A model generated the notes under the pieces. It was not told where the DNA came from, ran no database searches, and saw only the letters and a list, made by a program, of their open reading frames with translations. A stretch of 64,000 bases of DNA, taken from Candidatus Planktophila lacus (GTDB taxonomy: Bacteria; Actinomycetota; Actinomycetes; Nanopelagicales; Nanopelagicaceae). Location: the NCBI RefSeq assembly GCF_002287925.1, contig NZ_CP016769.1, positions 62,001-126,000 on the forward strand. Direction: 5' to 3'. The first letter of the stretch is position 1; each line of letters starts with the position of its first letter. Below are positions 37,789 to 43,920 of this stretch, in pieces. The position numbers and the translations under genes are program-made.

Positions 37789-38553
37789 ATGCAATATATC
37801 GATGATGCAGAATTTCAAATTGCAATTGATTTAGATAACGGCGCGCGCATTACATCGATTACTTGGCGCGATATGCAATTTGCAGTTCCTTATCGTGGAG
37901 ACCCTTTAACTCACGGTTGGTATGCGATGGGTCCATGGGCTGGGCGCATACGTGATGGAATCATGTTCGGTGCGGATGGTGAAGAGATTCAGTTGCCCAC
38001 AAATGTTGTGCCGCCGCATGCGATTCATGGTTATGGATTTACTTCTTCGTGGCAAGAGATTGGTCCGGGACGTTCTTTGCTTCATCTGCCAAAGCCTTAC
38101 GGTGGCGCAACTATCGAACAAACTATTGAAGTTTTAGATGATGCTGTGCGCTGGTCACTTGAATACGATCCTGGTGATTGCACCTTGCCGGCATGGCTTG
38201 GAATGCATCCTTGGTTTCCGCGCGATCTCGATCGGGGCGGCAGTGCAGAGATTGAATTTAAAGCAGCAAAGATGCTCAAGCGTGATGAAGATGGAATTCC
38301 AACCGGTGAATATGTTCCACAACCTGCGGGTCCGTGGGATGACGCATTCACTGAAATACAAGGTGTTCCGGCGGTTATCTGGGAAGACTGCGCGCGCATT
38401 GATGTTGAATCCGATGCGGCTTGGTGGGTTGTCTATAACGAAGATCCCGAAGGTGTTTGTATAGAGCCACAGACGGCGCCACCTGATGCGCAGAACTTAG
38501 GCATAAGTGGTGAGCATTACATCGAAGCGCTCTTCGTATTTTCCGAAGCGTAA
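37789..38553 (+). CDS. Aldose 1-epimerase family protein
   Basis: 254 residues from ATG 37789, which has AAGAGGG upstream; the longer open frame from 37723 overlaps the kinase and is rejected. WAGRIRDG, PPHAIHGYGF (the first catalytic His region) and AWLGMHPWFPRDL (second His) match galactose mutarotase-type enzymes; EPQTAPPDAQN near the end also fits. It interconverts sugar anomers or hexose-6-phosphate anomers. Eleven nt after the kinase. Confidence 0.78.
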   Translation: MQYIDDAEFQIAIDLDNGARITSITWRDMQFAVPYRGDPLTHGWYAMGPWAGRIRDGIMFGADGEEIQLPTNVVPPHAIHGYGFTSSWQEIGPGRSLLHLPKPYGGATIEQTIEVLDDAVRWSLEYDPGDCTLPAWLGMHPWFPRDLDRGGSAEIEFKAAKMLKRDEDGIPTGEYVPQPAGPWDDAFTEIQGVPAVIWEDCARIDVESDAAWWVVYNEDPEGVCIEPQTAPPDAQNLGISGEHYIEALFVFSEA

Positions 38554-38577
38554 AAAGAGAAAACGTAGGATTGGGTT

Positions 38578-39936
38578 ATGTCTACACAAATCGATCGTGG
38601 CCGTTTAGCGCAGCTTCGCAAAGTTGAAGAAGAGCGCTTTTTAGCAAATCACAAGAAGAGCGCGGAAGCTTTCGCTGATTCGCAGAAGGTGATGCACGAA
38701 GGTGTGCCGATGTCATGGATGGCTAAGTGGCCTGGTGCGCATCCGGTATTCGTAAAGGAAGCAAAGGGCGCGAAGTTCACCGATATTGATGGCAACACTT
38801 ATATCGATTTCTGTTTAGGCGATACCGGTTCTATGACTGGCCACTCACCAGATCCAACTATTGCTGCGATTAAGCGCCAGGCAGATATCGGAATCACTTC
38901 GATGTTGCCAACCCTTGATGCAGCCGTTGTTTCAAAGGAACTTGCTTCACGTTTTGGTCTGCCAAAGTGGCAATTTACGGTTACTGCAACCGATGCCAAT
39001 CGCCACGTCATTCGCTACTGCCGCCTGATTACTGGGCGTAGCAAGATCATCGTTATCGATCGCTGCTATCACGGCAGCGTTGATGAAACTTTTGCAACTT
39101 TGGATGATGCAGGAAATACAGTAAAGCGCGAAGGAAACCTCGGCGCACCTGTAGATCTTGATGTAACAACTCGCGTAGTTGAATTCAATGATTTGGCTGG
39201 CATGGAAGCGGCGCTAAAGCACGGTGATGTTGCGGCAATTTTGATGGAACCTGCGATGACCAATGTCGGCATTGTTCTGCCCGAAGATGGTTATCTATAT
39301 GCGGTTCAGGATCTTGCCAAGAAGTACGGCGCACTGTTGATCATTGATGAGACTCACACAATTTCTGTTGGTCCTGGCGGAATGACGCTAGACCTTGGAC
39401 TAAAGCCTGATTTCTTAACTATCGGCAAGGCCATTGCTGGCGGTATTCCAGTTGGCACATTTGGAATGACTGACGATGTCGCTAATTCAATTAAGAAGTT
39501 AGTTGAACTAGAAATTATTGACACTGGCGGAATTGGCAGCACCTTGGCAGGCAATGCAATGTCACTTGCTGCTATGCGTGCAACGTTGAGTGAAGTGTTA
39601 ACAGCTGCGGCATTTAAAGAGATGATCGCACTCGGTGATCGCTGGAGCGATGGCGTTGATGCGGCGATTGCAGAGTTTGATTTGGATTGGCACTGCAACC
39701 GTTTAGGTGCGCGCGGTGAGTACATCTTTAAAGGTAAGGCGCCGCGCACTGGTCGCGATGCTGCTGAATCAGGAGATTTCGAACTCGAGCAATACATTCA
39801 CTTGCGCTTGCTAAACGATGGTTTCTTGTTGACGCCATTTCACAATATGGCGCTGATGTCACCGGCAACAACCGCCGCTGACGTCGATGCGCATACTGCG
39901 GCATTTCGCGCCATGTGCGCTGAATTAGTCGGCTAG
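38578..39936 (+). CDS. Class III PLP-dependent aminotransferase
   Basis: 452 residues. FTDIDGNTYIDFCLGDTG near the N-terminus, IDETHTISVGPGG (Asp for the pyridine nitrogen), and TIGKAIAGGIPVGTFG with the PLP lysine. Overall resembles glutamate-1-semialdehyde aminomutase-like and other class III transaminases, but the long lead and GHSPDP rather than GHxHP make the substrate uncertain. Last gene of the run from 36384. A small RNA on the other strand ends 8 nt after its stop. Confidence 0.8.
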   Translation: MSTQIDRGRLAQLRKVEEERFLANHKKSAEAFADSQKVMHEGVPMSWMAKWPGAHPVFVKEAKGAKFTDIDGNTYIDFCLGDTGSMTGHSPDPTIAAIKRQADIGITSMLPTLDAAVVSKELASRFGLPKWQFTVTATDANRHVIRYCRLITGRSKIIVIDRCYHGSVDETFATLDDAGNTVKREGNLGAPVDLDVTTRVVEFNDLAGMEAALKHGDVAAILMEPAMTNVGIVLPEDGYLYAVQDLAKKYGALLIIDETHTISVGPGGMTLDLGLKPDFLTIGKAIAGGIPVGTFGMTDDVANSIKKLVELEIIDTGGIGSTLAGNAMSLAAMRATLSEVLTAAAFKEMIALGDRWSDGVDAAIAEFDLDWHCNRLGARGEYIFKGKAPRTGRDAAESGDFELEQYIHLRLLNDGFLLTPFHNMALMSPATTAADVDAHTAAFRAMCAELVG

Positions 39937-39943
39937 TTTCTCT

Positions 39944-39980
39944 AACAAAAGAGAAAGCCCCACATCACTGTGAGGCTTTC
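39944..39980 (-). terminator. Intrinsic terminator of the small RNA
   Basis: On the minus strand GAAAGCCTCACA-GTGA-TGTGGGGCTTTC forms a 12-bp stem with one G.U and a 4-nt loop, followed by TCTTTTGTT. On the plus strand the stem has a mismatch and is followed by CCATCCCG, so it should not work well for the aminotransferase message. Confidence 0.75.
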
Positions 39981-40075
39981 CCATCCCGCTTAAGTCATCT
40001 GATTCGCAGAATAAGACTTGAGCTTATTGATTCGAGCGATTTAGCTTTCGCCAGTGATCTCACTCCCGAACCGTT
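39944..40075 (-). ncRNA. Predicted small RNA (about 132 nt) with own promoter and terminator
   Basis: No ORF. On the minus strand: -35/-10 pair, start near A 40075, then possible three-way junction closed by GGTTCG (40072-40067) with CGAATC (40034-40029), holding hairpins AGTG-AGAT-CACT and GCGA-8 nt-TCGC; next AATAAG-7 nt-CTTATT (40028-40010); then the terminator stem 39980-39953 and TCTTTTGTT. The terminator's one imperfect pair is G.U on this strand but C.A on the other, which fixes the direction. I do not recognise it as a known RNA family. It is divergent from the HEPN gene and convergent with the aminotransferase. Confidence 0.6.
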
Positions 40076-40081
40076 GAGAAA

Positions 40082-40110
40082 AGTATAAAGATCGGGGCTG
40101 TGGATCACAA
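40082..40110 (-). promoter_or_regulatory. Promoter of the small RNA
   Basis: On the minus strand TTGTGA (40110-40105), a 17-bp spacer and TATACT (40087-40082), followed 6 nt later by A 40075. This is one of the best full -35/-10 pairs in the window. Confidence 0.65.
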
Positions 40111-40146
40111 CCTAATTTTGTCTGTGGTGTGGACGAAGGTACGCGA

Positions 40147-40569
40147 ATGGAAAAATTCTTAATTCGCTATAGCCAGACCTACATTTTGATTGGACAACTT
40201 GAATTGATTTTGCGTTCAAGGCTAGTTAAAACTCTCAGTACTTTTTCTGAAGAAAAAGGTTACGCAGAGTGGCATCAAGTCCTTGATTCAAAAACCACCT
40301 TCGATGTAAACAGCCCGAATCCAGGTTTTGGTCTTTGGAGAGATGTTTTATCTCAGCGAAATTTCACGCGCCTCTGGCTGCCATGCACCAGACACGCCTT
40401 CTTGGATCTGCCCTTCCCAGAATCCTTTAAGACTTATCAAAAGATCGATAACCGGATGCACTATGCGACCGGGACAAGAAATCGCGCTTGTCACTTCAAT
40501 TTTGCGAATGCCCGCAACGTTAAACATGAAGAAGCCAATTTAAAGTGGTTAATAAATGCCCTGGGGTAG
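40147..40569 (+). CDS. HEPN-domain protein, Abi/Swt1-like
   Basis: 140 residues, all-helical by appearance. RNRACH at 111-116 is the HEPN RNase motif RNxxxH (Rx4H). The N-terminal helix IGQLELILRSRLVKTL (15-30) has the spaced Glu and Arg common in Abi-like HEPN proteins. Many HEPN proteins are RNases of toxin-antitoxin or phage-abort systems. ATG 40147 with GAAGG 10 nt upstream is preferred to GTG 40129. No partner nucleotidyltransferase is adjacent; the neighbour is the divergent small RNA. Activity is inference. Confidence 0.6.
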   Translation: MEKFLIRYSQTYILIGQLELILRSRLVKTLSTFSEEKGYAEWHQVLDSKTTFDVNSPNPGFGLWRDVLSQRNFTRLWLPCTRHAFLDLPFPESFKTYQKIDNRMHYATGTRNRACHFNFANARNVKHEEANLKWLINALG

Positions 40570-40622
40570 CGATTTCCCTAGCAATAGTGGTGCCGAGCGC
40601 ATAAATTTAGCCTGAACTGGCG

Positions 40623-40645
40623 GACTACTGAGTAGTCATACTGAG
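40623..40645 (+). promoter_or_regulatory. Operator-like repeats before the secreted-protein pair
   Basis: Inverted repeat GACTAC-TGA-GTAGTC (40623-40637) overlapping a direct repeat TACTGAG (40626-40632 and 40639-40645), directly upstream of GAGAGGCGGAA and ATG 40654. May be a regulator site or an mRNA hairpin. Confidence 0.4.
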
Positions 40646-40653
40646 AGGCGGAA

Positions 40654-42210
40654 ATGAAGAAAAGTTGGAAGCTGATCCCAATCGTGGCTCTTGCCATTGG
40701 TTTGATCATTCCTGTTTCCGCACCTGCCGCTGAAGATACAGAGGCATTTTTTGCAGCGTCAATCACCAGAGAAAACCCTAGTGACAAGATATTTTCTATC
40801 AGCGATGATGTTGGAATCAATTTTTCGCAACTTGGTAACTGGCCTGACAAACTATGTAGTTCTACCAAGGATCCCAAGTGTAATTTCAACGCCGTCGATA
40901 ACCGTGAAGAAAACAGAATATCTGCAACCCCAATGCTAGGCCTCTGTGAGGCAGCGGCTAATGATGACTGTATTGAAAGTATCGAAATTAGTAACGATGC
41001 AACATCATTTAGAAATCTAACTTTCGAAAGATATATGCCCGATGGATTTTCAAGTCCGCTAGATGGAAATACTTTTCCTTCTGATTATTCAAAGAACTTG
41101 CCGCGCGGTGCAAATGCATCAATCTGGGTTGATAAAGAAGATGTTTCGGTATCGCCACTGAAGTACATTGCTTACTTTTCTTACGGTATGAACTACTCAC
41201 CCGCATCAGGAAAATTCGAGGTAACCGATGTAAATCTTGCGATTAGACCGTTTAAAGAGATCAACGGTTTTAGGTGGGATGCTCTTTGGACAGGTAGTGG
41301 GAAGAGTGGAATTCTTTTTGACTTTAAACCCAATTCGACATTTAGAGTGGCTGTTCACGTGTCGAATGAGACTTCAGGATGGTTTAAAGCAAGATTAAAA
41401 GACTTATCAATAGAAATCACGAAACTGAATCCTAGAAACAATCGCTTAGTAGTTGCCGGGACTTCCGTGACAGTTCCGAATTTTGGAGTCGCTCGTCAAG
41501 CGGAAGGCTTAGCAAGTAAAGAGGCTGAACTCGCGCAATATTTTGGCTATTTGAAAGGTGTAGTTAGCGCTGCACCAGGGAATGAAAGAATCTTTGAATA
41601 TTTAGAGTATTGGCGTCCCATTCTGAAAGATATTGCTCCGAAGACAAACACTTTCTGGACCTTAAACTCGACGCGCTGGACGAGTTCGAATAAATGCCTG
41701 AGTGATAAAACGCGCGTCTTAGGTGTCGTATCAACCAACTCGATGGGTTATGACGGCAACGCCCCTAAGTTTGTTGACGGATTCCTAAACTATCGCGTTG
41801 CGGGACTTCACTTTGCAGCAGATGGAAAGACTCTAAATCTTGGCACCTATGACCTTGTCATGCGCAGTGATGCAGCTCGTTGTCTCTACGGATTTTCAAA
41901 CGCTCCAGTTTCTGCAACAGTTTCAATTGCTGGGGCTGATGGCGCACAGAACGTTGCGACAACTGTTGTAACTGAAAAAGATGGCTGGCTAAAGATGAAA
42001 GCTGCCGGATTTACATTCAGCGAGAAGCAGATAAAGGTGAAGATAACTCAGGAGCCTTCTGCGGGTGCCACTCCTGCACCAGTTGCGTCTGCAGCCCCTG
42101 TTGCAGTTGCGAAGAAGAAATCCACGATCACTTGCGTTAAAGGCAAGACAACAAAGAAGGTAAGCGCTGTTTCGCCAAAGTGTCCGGCCGGATTTAAGAA
42201 GAAGGCTTAG
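40654..42210 (+). CDS. Secreted protein with C-terminal Lys/Cys tail, paralog 1
   Basis: 518 residues. Signal peptide: KKSWKLIPIVALAIGLIIPVS, cleavage near APAAED. Body has several Cys pairs (for example LCSSTKDPKCN, CEAAANDDCIES) and an Ig-like final domain (FSNAPVSATVSIAGADG). After an Ala/Pro linker the protein ends in KKKSTITCVKGKTTKKVSAV and SPKCPAGFKKKA. The next gene is a clear paralog and starts 3 nt after this stop. Function is unknown; exported and probably wall-bound by the tail. Confidence 0.7.
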   Translation: MKKSWKLIPIVALAIGLIIPVSAPAAEDTEAFFAASITRENPSDKIFSISDDVGINFSQLGNWPDKLCSSTKDPKCNFNAVDNREENRISATPMLGLCEAAANDDCIESIEISNDATSFRNLTFERYMPDGFSSPLDGNTFPSDYSKNLPRGANASIWVDKEDVSVSPLKYIAYFSYGMNYSPASGKFEVTDVNLAIRPFKEINGFRWDALWTGSGKSGILFDFKPNSTFRVAVHVSNETSGWFKARLKDLSIEITKLNPRNNRLVVAGTSVTVPNFGVARQAEGLASKEAELAQYFGYLKGVVSAAPGNERIFEYLEYWRPILKDIAPKTNTFWTLNSTRWTSSNKCLSDKTRVLGVVSTNSMGYDGNAPKFVDGFLNYRVAGLHFAADGKTLNLGTYDLVMRSDAARCLYGFSNAPVSATVSIAGADGAQNVATTVVTEKDGWLKMKAAGFTFSEKQIKVKITQEPSAGATPAPVASAAPVAVAKKKSTITCVKGKTTKKVSAVSPKCPAGFKKKA

Positions 42211-42213
42211 TCG

Positions 42214-43920
42214 ATGAAGAGAGCTTTGGCGGCAATAGTGATTGCCTTGTTTGCTTTGGCACATCCTACGGTTACGACCGCCGCGGGTGTTATTGATGAA
42301 CAATATTCGCTTAACGGCCAAGGTGACAACAGAAATAAAGTTGGCGTGTTTTTTGAAGAAAGCGTCGATACGTTGCGTATGCCTACGTTGCTCTTCGCTA
42401 ATGCTATGGATAAAGATAAACCTTCGCAGGGAATCGATTTCTGTTCAAGTTTGGAAGATCCAAAATGTAGCACTGCGCAATCTGTGCTTTATTACGCACT
42501 TCTACCGCCATGCAAATCACTTTTGGAAGCGGATTGCATCGAAAGTATTTATGCAATTGTTCCAGGTTCACCCGCTCGAATTAGGGGTGTATATCGCGAA
42601 TCGGTACCAAATAAAGTTGCCAATCCATATAAGGCGGATCCTGAAAATGGTTTGCCCCAAGGTTCGGTTGCAGGTGTCTGGGAAATTCCAAATGTAAAAC
42701 ATGGTGGAAACACAGCAGATTATGTGGCAATAGTTTCCCGTGTAGGAGCGATTAAGCGCGAAGGAACAAAATGGGTTGCAACATCAAACGGGAAAATCTC
42801 CAGAGACGGAGATTTTAGAGCTGCGATTTTTCCAACAAAAATAATCAGAGATGCGCGCTATAAATCCAATACTGCAAAAATAAGTCCAAGGTTAGACGCC
42901 AACTTTAATAGCGTACAGATTGGCCATCCAAGTCAGCTCCCATTCGATGTATGCGCTGTAGTTGGAGATGGCGTTTGCGCAATGCGTCAAGCATTCCCAG
43001 GAAACATCAAATTTGGAATGGTAATTAGATTCTCAAAGGTGATTAATGGGTGGATGCATGGACGTATTGATTCACCTGAAATTGATTACGAACTGACTAG
43101 TTACGGAACTCGAATTGATATGAAAGGAGAAGCTACCCGAGTACCTATTTTAGCTGGTTGGGCTATTCCTAGTGATTTTTCTGAGTCTGACCGCCGCCAG
43201 CACTCATACCTAAACAATGCTGATGGTTCAGGTATTTATCCTGGCGCTAGCGGGGATTACTCAATGGATCAGTTAATCATCTGGTCGAAAGTATTGAAAG
43301 ACAAGGCGGTAGCAAATCCAACACAATGGATTTTCTACGATCTTTCAGAACGTGATATTGCTAGTTCCAGCGCTTGTATAAAGTCTTCAAAAACGCTTGC
43401 AGGTTTTGTAACAACAAACTCAACGACTTATACAGCTACTCCACCGATTTATAACGAGCAAACCGGAACTCTGGACTACAAAGTAGCCTCTCCGCATTTT
43501 CTTGCCGATGGAAAAGTCTTCCAAGGAAAGTACAACCTGTATATCGATTCAAAGGTTGCACGTTGTATCTATAAATTTAGTAACGCCCCAATCTCAGCAT
43601 CGGTGAGTATTACTTCCTCAGATGGAGGCCAGCAGAACGTAGCGACAACAGTTGTAAATGAAGATAACGGTTGGCTCCATTTAAGTGCGACAGGATTTAC
43701 ATTTTCATCACCGACTTTGAAAGTAAAGCTGACTCAAGATGGATCAATTGGAACGCCAACTCCACAACCGAGTGCGGAACCTTCGGCTAGCGCTGAACCT
43801 CAAGTAGCTGCGATTCCGGTGATGAAGAAATCCACGATCACTTGCGTCAAAGGTAAGACAACAAAGAAGGTAAGTGCTGTCTCGCCGAAGTGTCCAGCTG
43901 GATTTAAGAAGAAGGCTTAG
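42214..43920 (+). CDS. Secreted protein with C-terminal Lys/Cys tail, paralog 2
   Basis: 568 residues. Signal peptide RALAAIVIALFALAHPTVTTAA. It shares with the previous protein the FCSSLEDPKCS Cys pair, the CKSLLEADCIESI pair, the final domain FSNAPISASVSI plus QQNVATTVVNE, and a nearly identical 31-residue tail after a Pro/Ser linker. The tail is highly similar also at DNA level. Tandem duplication is likely. The stop overlaps the convergent mshD-like stop by 4 nt. Confidence 0.7.
   Translation: MKRALAAIVIALFALAHPTVTTAAGVIDEQYSLNGQGDNRNKVGVFFEESVDTLRMPTLLFANAMDKDKPSQGIDFCSSLEDPKCSTAQSVLYYALLPPCKSLLEADCIESIYAIVPGSPARIRGVYRESVPNKVANPYKADPENGLPQGSVAGVWEIPNVKHGGNTADYVAIVSRVGAIKREGTKWVATSNGKISRDGDFRAAIFPTKIIRDARYKSNTAKISPRLDANFNSVQIGHPSQLPFDVCAVVGDGVCAMRQAFPGNIKFGMVIRFSKVINGWMHGRIDSPEIDYELTSYGTRIDMKGEATRVPILAGWAIPSDFSESDRRQHSYLNNADGSGIYPGASGDYSMDQLIIWSKVLKDKAVANPTQWIFYDLSERDIASSSACIKSSKTLAGFVTTNSTTYTATPPIYNEQTGTLDYKVASPHFLADGKVFQGKYNLYIDSKVARCIYKFSNAPISASVSITSSDGGQQNVATTVVNEDNGWLHLSATGFTFSSPTLKVKLTQDGSIGTPTPQPSAEPSASAEPQVAAIPVMKKSTITCVKGKTTKKVSAVSPKCPAGFKKKA

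Follow-up and report, generated by a model that had tools for sequence, protein, structure and literature searches.

A 64,000-nucleotide stretch (the window) of the complete 1.46-Mb genome of Candidatus Planktophila lacus very probably carries a real small RNA gene on its minus strand, and comparison with relatives suggests that this RNA, predicted to be expressed, is most likely the antitoxin of an AbiF-like HEPN toxin encoded divergently beside it. The RNA is flanked by a class III aminotransferase gene (38578-39936, plus strand) and by an open reading frame for a HEPN protein (40147-40569, plus strand). We hold it to be probable, with good confidence, that the two constitute an AbiF-type toxin-antitoxin module, type III-like in action. 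The sequence evidence points to a conserved structure, a defined strand, a promoter and a terminator for the RNA, to its linkage with the HEPN gene and to loss of this gene where the RNA is kept. From structure, linkage and homology we infer the function; expression, toxicity, RNA-protein binding and phage defence are likewise to be taken as predictions. The divergent HEPN/Abi-type neighbor, which explains the RNA, was absent from a previous sequence-only reading of the window, which had proposed a stand-alone small RNA gene at this place.

The features are collected in Table 1. On the minus strand, the promoter TTGTGA-17-TATACT at 40110-40082 and the terminator, a 14-bp stem at 39982-39951 followed by a U-rich tail, are present as the sequence-only reading had described them. 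Over positions 38000-42000, there is no excess of promoter-like sites (5 versus 5.4 in shuffles, sd 2.9) or of terminator-like sites (4 versus 4.1, sd 2.3). The 132-nt segment, previously called foldable, does form a more stable fold than 200 of 200 shuffles, but its z of -4.29 is owed mainly to the terminator (-6.35), the 5' hairpin alone giving -1.88 and the middle hairpin -1.11. The middle hairpin was considered as a second copy of the conserved motif and rejected, the covariance model R1 described below giving 1.8 bits there, on the opposite strand. The segment has a sole frame of at least 20 codons, a 37-codon GTG frame (39995-40108) which begins upstream of the predicted transcript start, and the earlier statement that there is no ORF is therefore right in substance. 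No Rfam family reached threshold for the RNA, in agreement with the claim that the RNA matches no known family; ctRNA_p42d and isrJ, rejected as identities, were below threshold and cover the terminator stem alone. Single-sequence statistics of this kind are weak for promoter, terminator and fold, and the stronger support comes from comparison.

Table 1. Features of the predicted RNA gene and its surroundings in the window.
Feature	Position	Strand	Basis or remark
Predicted RNA transcript, about 132 nt	39944..40075	-	ends inferred from -10 box and terminator
-35 hexamer TTGTGA	40105..40110	-	sequence; TTG hexamer in relatives' copies
-10 hexamer TATACT	40082..40087	-	sequence; TAnnnT near hairpin in relatives' copies
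Conserved antitoxin-like hairpin	40027..40075	-	R1 match (45.0 bits, E 5.2e-9); pair counts; RNAalifold
P1 of hairpin	40071-40065 with 40036-40030	-	
P2 of hairpin	40059-40057 with 40040-40038	-	
CAC bulge of hairpin	40056-40054	-	
P3 of hairpin	40053-40050 with 40045-40042	-	
GAAA loop of hairpin	40049-40046	-	
Second (middle) hairpin GCUCAAGUC...GACUUAAGC	39988..40023	-	likeness to conserved motif in outline only; unrecognized by R1
Intrinsic terminator stem, 14 bp	39951..39982	-	U-rich tail to about 39941; folding z -6.35
HEPN (Abi-like) gene, proposed toxin	40147..40569	+	ATG 40147, 140 aa; GTG 40129 also possible
Accessory stretch with the RNA, the HEPN gene and two tandem proteins whose starts are signal-like	39937..43916	.	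absent where aminotransferase and GNAT genes abut

The 5' hairpin at 40071-40030 has a conserved core and is composed, in order, of an outer stem, GAU/AUC, the CAC bulge and UGGC-GAAA-GCUA. A DNA search of 100 genomes found its 30-base core, at 90% identity, in two genomes besides the window, both copies directly 3' of the same aminotransferase gene and with a flanking stem which differs in sequence and still pairs. Twenty hairpin copies were aligned (A3), and 16 of them (A4) served to build the covariance model R1; three window-type rows were left out deliberately, together with a deviating copy (L055:427-473). RNAalifold, run on A4 with no structure supplied, returned the same 14-pair fold as that drawn by hand. 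Seven of the 14 pairs have changed on both sides, a count reached in 0 of 500 shuffles, and sliding the partners abolishes the pairing; compensating changes, for which an alignment of related genomes had been proposed as a check, are found in the 5' hairpin. What gains support is a single hairpin interrupted by internal loops, and neither the three-way junction nor the AATAAG/CTTATT hairpin suggested earlier from the single sequence gained support from the aligned copies. R1, although built without window-type copies, finds the window copy with 45.0 bits (E 5.2e-9), the next best match having 11.1 bits. Two P3 pairs are G.U in 7 and 3 of 13 distinct rows, and because these would be A.C mismatches on the other strand, the RNA is placed on the minus strand. 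Upstream, a TAnnnT box with its end 5-8 nt from the motif is present in 16 of the 17 copies suited to the promoter test (17 of the 20 in A3, inner copies of tandem sets being excluded), versus 12.7% at random places, and a TTG hexamer stands 17-18 nt before the -10 box in 8 of 17 relatives' copies. This box and the covarying hairpin in relatives give stronger support to the RNA gene than the single-sequence signals do, so that comparison lends good support to a minus-strand gene having a promoter and a terminator of its own. The HEPN genes of the genus have one to three hairpin copies upstream on the opposite strand, the window having one sure copy. Three hairpins follow each other head to tail with a 44-nt period and no spacers in G053 (L055:383-517), two with a 46-nt period in G158 (L038:2016-2108), and a second copy in G129 was judged by eye.

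The RNA and the HEPN gene seem, from their distribution, to come and go as one module. A protein search found HEPN homologs at 17 loci in 16 of 135 genus genomes, and R1 gave 22 matches in 18 of the 135. An R1 match stands divergently upstream at 16 of the 16 HEPN loci with available upstream sequence; the 17th (G142) is cut off there by the end of its contig. The RNA is kept in three genomes that lack an intact HEPN gene: in G015 and G128 no HEPN gene was found and a GNAT gene comes next, and G007 keeps a HEPN remnant, seen by eye, which gives no profile match. In a further genome (G036) the HEPN frame is broken. The RNA occurs without the toxin gene but, in this set, the toxin gene never without the RNA, which is the pattern expected of an antitoxin. 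One genus member known from the profile search only (G157) gives no R1 match, and a variant hairpin is visible there by eye. At the junction which carries the module in the window, the aminotransferase gene abuts a convergent GNAT gene (gap of -5 to 10 bases) in 17 of 30 loci; the junction is variable, elsewhere holding the RNA-HEPN module or other genes. The sequence-only reading had named retention of the flanking genes with loss of the RNA as evidence against its proposal. Such loss does occur, at these 17 loci, yet the HEPN gene is gone there too: a junction without the RNA has no room for the HEPN gene either, which makes the RNA part of an accessory module and leaves the proposal standing. 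In the accessory stretch of the window, the two tandem proteins (40654-42210 and 42214-43920) have signal-like starts, a common C-terminal sequence TCVKGKTTKKVSAVSPKCPAGFKKKA and weak, sub-threshold PP2 matches. The G+C content is about 0.36-0.40 over positions 1-22000 of the window and 0.43-0.51 over 22001-64000, and this step near 22 kb may be an island boundary. In a named collection, relatives of the HEPN gene were found in seven MAGs, one Ca. Planktophila and six uncultured Actinomycetota, which makes an acI-type lake actinobacterium the very probable bearer of the gene.

The HEPN protein has an RNRACH motif at residues 111-116 (HEPN R-polar-x3-H). E19, R23, R111, N112 and H116 are kept in the aligned homologs, and R111, N112 and H116 are invariant in 14 of 14 (the alignment, A1, excludes G107, identical to the window, the broken frame of G036 and the cut C12 copy of G053; A6 excludes L088). 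The protein matched nothing in Pfam (including PF07751 at its gathering score), PADLOC, NCBIfam or PHROGs, and against PDB sequences its best match had only E 1.7. A profile search of 394 genomes of the class matched 57 genomes, spread over 28 of 137 genera, and outside the genus most open frames measure 200-300 aa. These matches fall in 78 places, of which six belong to the window's own species or genus; the 72 others include G157. Ten of 25 distant homologs were scanned with Abi_2 (PF07751), which matched seven of them, five below the cut-off of 25.6 bits and two (L063 and L067) above it; in PADLOC, the same ten matched PD-T4-5 (10/10) and AbiD (8/10), some weakly. Among plasmids, relatives of L063 are present in 911 records, some of them annotated 'Abi family protein', and the window protein as query found one weak match (E 7e-3). 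Its AF2 model is all-helical and of moderate quality (pLDDT 74.6, pTM 0.68). With this model, Foldseek found nothing in the PDB at E <= 0.001, and VIA ranked first 8vz6 (PbAbiF with its ncRNA; Z 7.8, rmsd 2.8, 122 aligned residues), a Z which falls below the value of about 13 under which matches of helical bundles can be unspecific. Five more HEPN toxins follow (Z 5.6-6.1), and the case for a possible AbiF-like fold lies in the first six VIA rows all being HEPN toxins.

Beyond the genus, R1 finds 4 of 25 class-level loci, as divergent matches (E 8e-6 to 1.4e-4); by reading, the other loci show a hairpin at the corresponding position, its outer stem rich in GC. The class-level core reads G-N-C, C-N-C bulge, U(hairpin)A, N, G-N-C, and for L061 and L084 RNAfold gives the topology as drawn. 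A strict pattern rule was derived from the 25 loci together with the genus copies and L116. Held-out homologs were taken from the 72 other places of the profile search: besides these 25 loci there were 47 places, of which 40 were retrieved and 39 were testable, L158 being too short. The strict rule matched 21 of these 39 on the minus strand and 1 on the plus strand (shuffles 5.5%), one of the 21 (L156) being by eye a doubtful family member; a relaxed rule matched 26 and 7, respectively (shuffles 10.5%). A strict minus-strand match is thus missing in 18 of the 39. In the 25 loci of origin, the strict rule succeeds in 17 and the relaxed rule in 25; the eight strict failures are mostly due to a P3 or P2 needing an A.C pair on the minus strand, and such pairs, as read from the class-level sequences, count against a simple hairpin model. 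A class-level model, R2, was built from 16 of 20 located hairpins and used in an RNA-first search of the 394 class genomes, giving 23 matches, spread over 21 genomes. A full divergent HEPN homolog stands next to 20 of them and a C-terminal remnant next to one, and two have no HEPN gene. For the ten matches outside the 13 training rows, several of them already known from the protein search, the figures are seven, one and two. R2 is insensitive: of the 57 class genomes matched by the HEPN profile it finds 19, and at E <= 0.001 it misses the window copy. What connects the window hairpin to the wider family is therefore the four R1 matches and the common outline.

At 16 Abi-type loci of plasmids and phages, a strict minus-strand hairpin is present in seven and missing in nine. 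Four of these come from a first set of seven (Streptomyces pSV2, Ancylobacter, Agrobacterium and a freshwater phage; shuffles 3.3%) and three from a second set of nine (Phocaeicola, Chryseobacterium and Kocuria). A minus-strand hairpin is seen by eye in L075, L130, L132, L143, L147, L154, L307 and L308; in the Agrobacterium (L307) and Rhizobium (L308) loci a U.G pair is what the rule excludes. Pairs of similar divergent layout recur across many Actinomycetes and, in Alphaproteobacteria and Bacteroidota, on some plasmids. In three loci (L122, L142 and L148) the RNA appears by eye to lie on the strand of the gene and to be followed by a terminator, as in RCd22, and L148 also has a strict plus-strand match.

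The Rfam family RF03085 (threshold 37 bits) has no match in the window, and none at E <= 10 in 39900-40160. It gave none in the rest of the genome, a weak result as the control genomes gave no match either, and none in the relatives scanned apart from the positive control, cyanophage S-CREM1. Its consensus, printed against S-CREM1, has an outer stem around AGC CUCUCAACGAU GCU. The core of the window RNA is GAUCACU...AAAUC, without the GCCUCU...AUGC of RF03085. GCCUCU with AUGC is found only in distant relatives, for example L077, L084 and L117, and some class-level and alphaproteobacterial relatives combine it with a short hairpin where the abiF loop is open. Sub-threshold Rfam matches in relatives were to Xoo8, Plastid-ycf2, Thr_leader, NPPA-AS1_3 and RRE. 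Viral contigs frequently contain the RF03085 core GCCTCTCAACGATGC (loci L163-L242; L115:632-668), in at least 120 stretches; 80 of them were examined, and a flanking stem of at least 5 bp is present in 69. One of the 80 lies within 600 nt of an RNxxxH-type frame, of 900 residues and without profile support, in a search for HEPN genes which was crude (our own profile and a regular expression). Judging from these sequences, stand-alone abiF-type RNAs of phages could be decoy antitoxins. The viral contigs held no exact Planktophila-type core and, in that search, no relative of the A2 proteins.

Other roles for the RNA can be weighed against that of an antitoxin. As its gene is head to head with the HEPN gene, the RNA could pair with the HEPN mRNA leader from the other strand and block translation, like a type I antisense, and in L061, L062, L064 and L069 its TTGACA box, by eye, overlaps or comes near the HEPN start codon. 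We nevertheless regard this as unlikely: the outer stem varies with compensation while the bulge and core bases are constant, the reverse of what an antisense needs, diverged tandem copies exist, and overlap requires a HEPN transcript start upstream of 40075. We would give even less credence to an ordinary regulatory sRNA, or a terminator relic of the neighboring genes, connected with HEPN through shared position alone. The folding energy does come mostly from the terminator and several copies sit at the same aminotransferase junction, but the pair recurs away from it in G010, G047, G122 and G129, there after another terminator, as well as in other families and on plasmids.

Two further readings assign the RNA to the HEPN gene or its product in another manner. 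That it is a cis-acting leader or attenuator of the gene seems very improbable, since the RNA has a promoter of its own and runs on the opposite strand throughout the genus and at most of the class loci that have a match, and strict plus-strand matches, 1 in 39, are no more frequent than in shuffles. In favor of such a leader are the place of the RNA immediately upstream of the HEPN gene, as PMC12373285 describes for RCd22, the seven plus-strand matches under the relaxed rule, and the plus-strand RNAs possible by eye in L122, L142 and L148, with the strict match in the last. Least probable, hardly to be credited, is a guide RNA, a hairpin which would load the HEPN protein and steer it to a target RNA as a crRNA does for Cas13. 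The idea draws on AbiD/F as the proposed ancestor of Cas13 (PMC12165695 and the review PMC12737573) and on the locus L055 with its repeated hairpins; these copies, though, are contiguous and spacer-free, and at most loci of the genus one sure hairpin stands by itself, with no variable, guide-like segment.

In the preferred reading, that of an RNA antitoxin with an AbiF-like toxin, the HEPN protein would be an RNase toxin of the Abi_2/AbiD/F group, and the minus-strand RNA would be made from its own sigma-70-type promoter and stopped at its own terminator. The conserved bulge and core of the hairpin would bind the toxin dimer and hold it inactive; were the RNA supply to fail, for instance upon phage infection, the toxin would be freed and growth would halt. 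A larger claim, which we advance tentatively as somewhat short of an even chance, is that of a separate, major RNA antitoxin family missing from Rfam: a P1-GNC-CNC bulge-U(hairpin)A-N-GNC hairpin, transcribed away from Abi-family HEPN toxin genes in Actinomycetota, Pseudomonadota and Bacteroidota at least. Two opposed promoters, rather than read-through of one terminator, would then set the toxin-antitoxin ratio, and in some genus genomes the hairpin would have been multiplied into short arrays free of spacers. The divergent layout and a hairpin missed by Rfam suggest that an RNA partner has escaped annotation beside many 'Abi family' genes, in Actinomycetota as in other phyla. The module would also represent a testable RNA-based defense in freshwater actinobacteria; phage isolates exist for the order Ca. 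Nanopelagicales (PMC10202952). AbiF with its RNA is the proposed starting point of RNA-guided Cas13, and the antitoxin-to-guide question could conveniently be studied with a compact 140-residue AbiF-like protein and its single hairpin of about 45 nt. In the open literature covered (titles and beginnings of abstracts, partly the best-ranked entries), nothing appeared on an Abi-associated RNA in Actinomycetota, and the string 'Actino' is absent from the main texts of PMC12373285, PMC12165695 and PMC12737573.

The system would resemble AbiF and its RNA in function and, by present RNA family membership, is outside RF03085. The structure of PbAbiF is reportedly that of Zilberzwige-Tal et al. (Cell, 2025), who may already describe related RNAs. 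According to PMC12373285, the RCd22 ncRNA of the Clostridioides difficile prophage phi027 binds and neutralizes AbiF and is co-transcribed with the toxin gene from immediately upstream; the review PMC12737573 states that inhibition of PbAbiF uses bases in a single-stranded bulge. AbiF-RCd22/RF03085 and the window system have in common a HEPN/Abi-type protein with the RNxxxH motif and a small structured RNA of about 100-130 nt directly upstream. In both, this RNA has a promoter and a terminator of its own, and its hairpin consists of an outer stem and a core. The GCCUCU...AUGC core of RF03085 is shared by some distant relatives of the window system. Unlike RCd22, the window RNA is divergent and not co-transcribed; unlike RF03085, it has the extra P3 hairpin where the loop is open, and its GAUCACU...AAAUC core gives no covariance-model match. 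In contrast to AbiF, the window protein has 140 aa and no Pfam match. The PbAbiF-ncRNA complex (PDB 8vz6; AbiFr) is its top structural match over 122 residues, PbAbiF having 297, about twice the length of the window protein; this likeness is one of the proteins. PD-T4-5 and AbiD of PADLOC are matched by the class-level homologs and neither by the window protein. With ToxIN and type III systems, it shares an RNA antitoxin against an RNase, here a predicted one, and repeat copies in some loci, but toxin and RNA structure differ (PMC12373285). Of the type III features, adjacency of a structured RNA to the putative toxin gene is seen at all 16 genus loci with upstream sequence, and the repeated motif, optional here, is present in one to three copies in the genus and one sure copy in the window; in place of toxin-antitoxin co-transcription with a terminator between the two, the RNA is divergent and has its own promoter.
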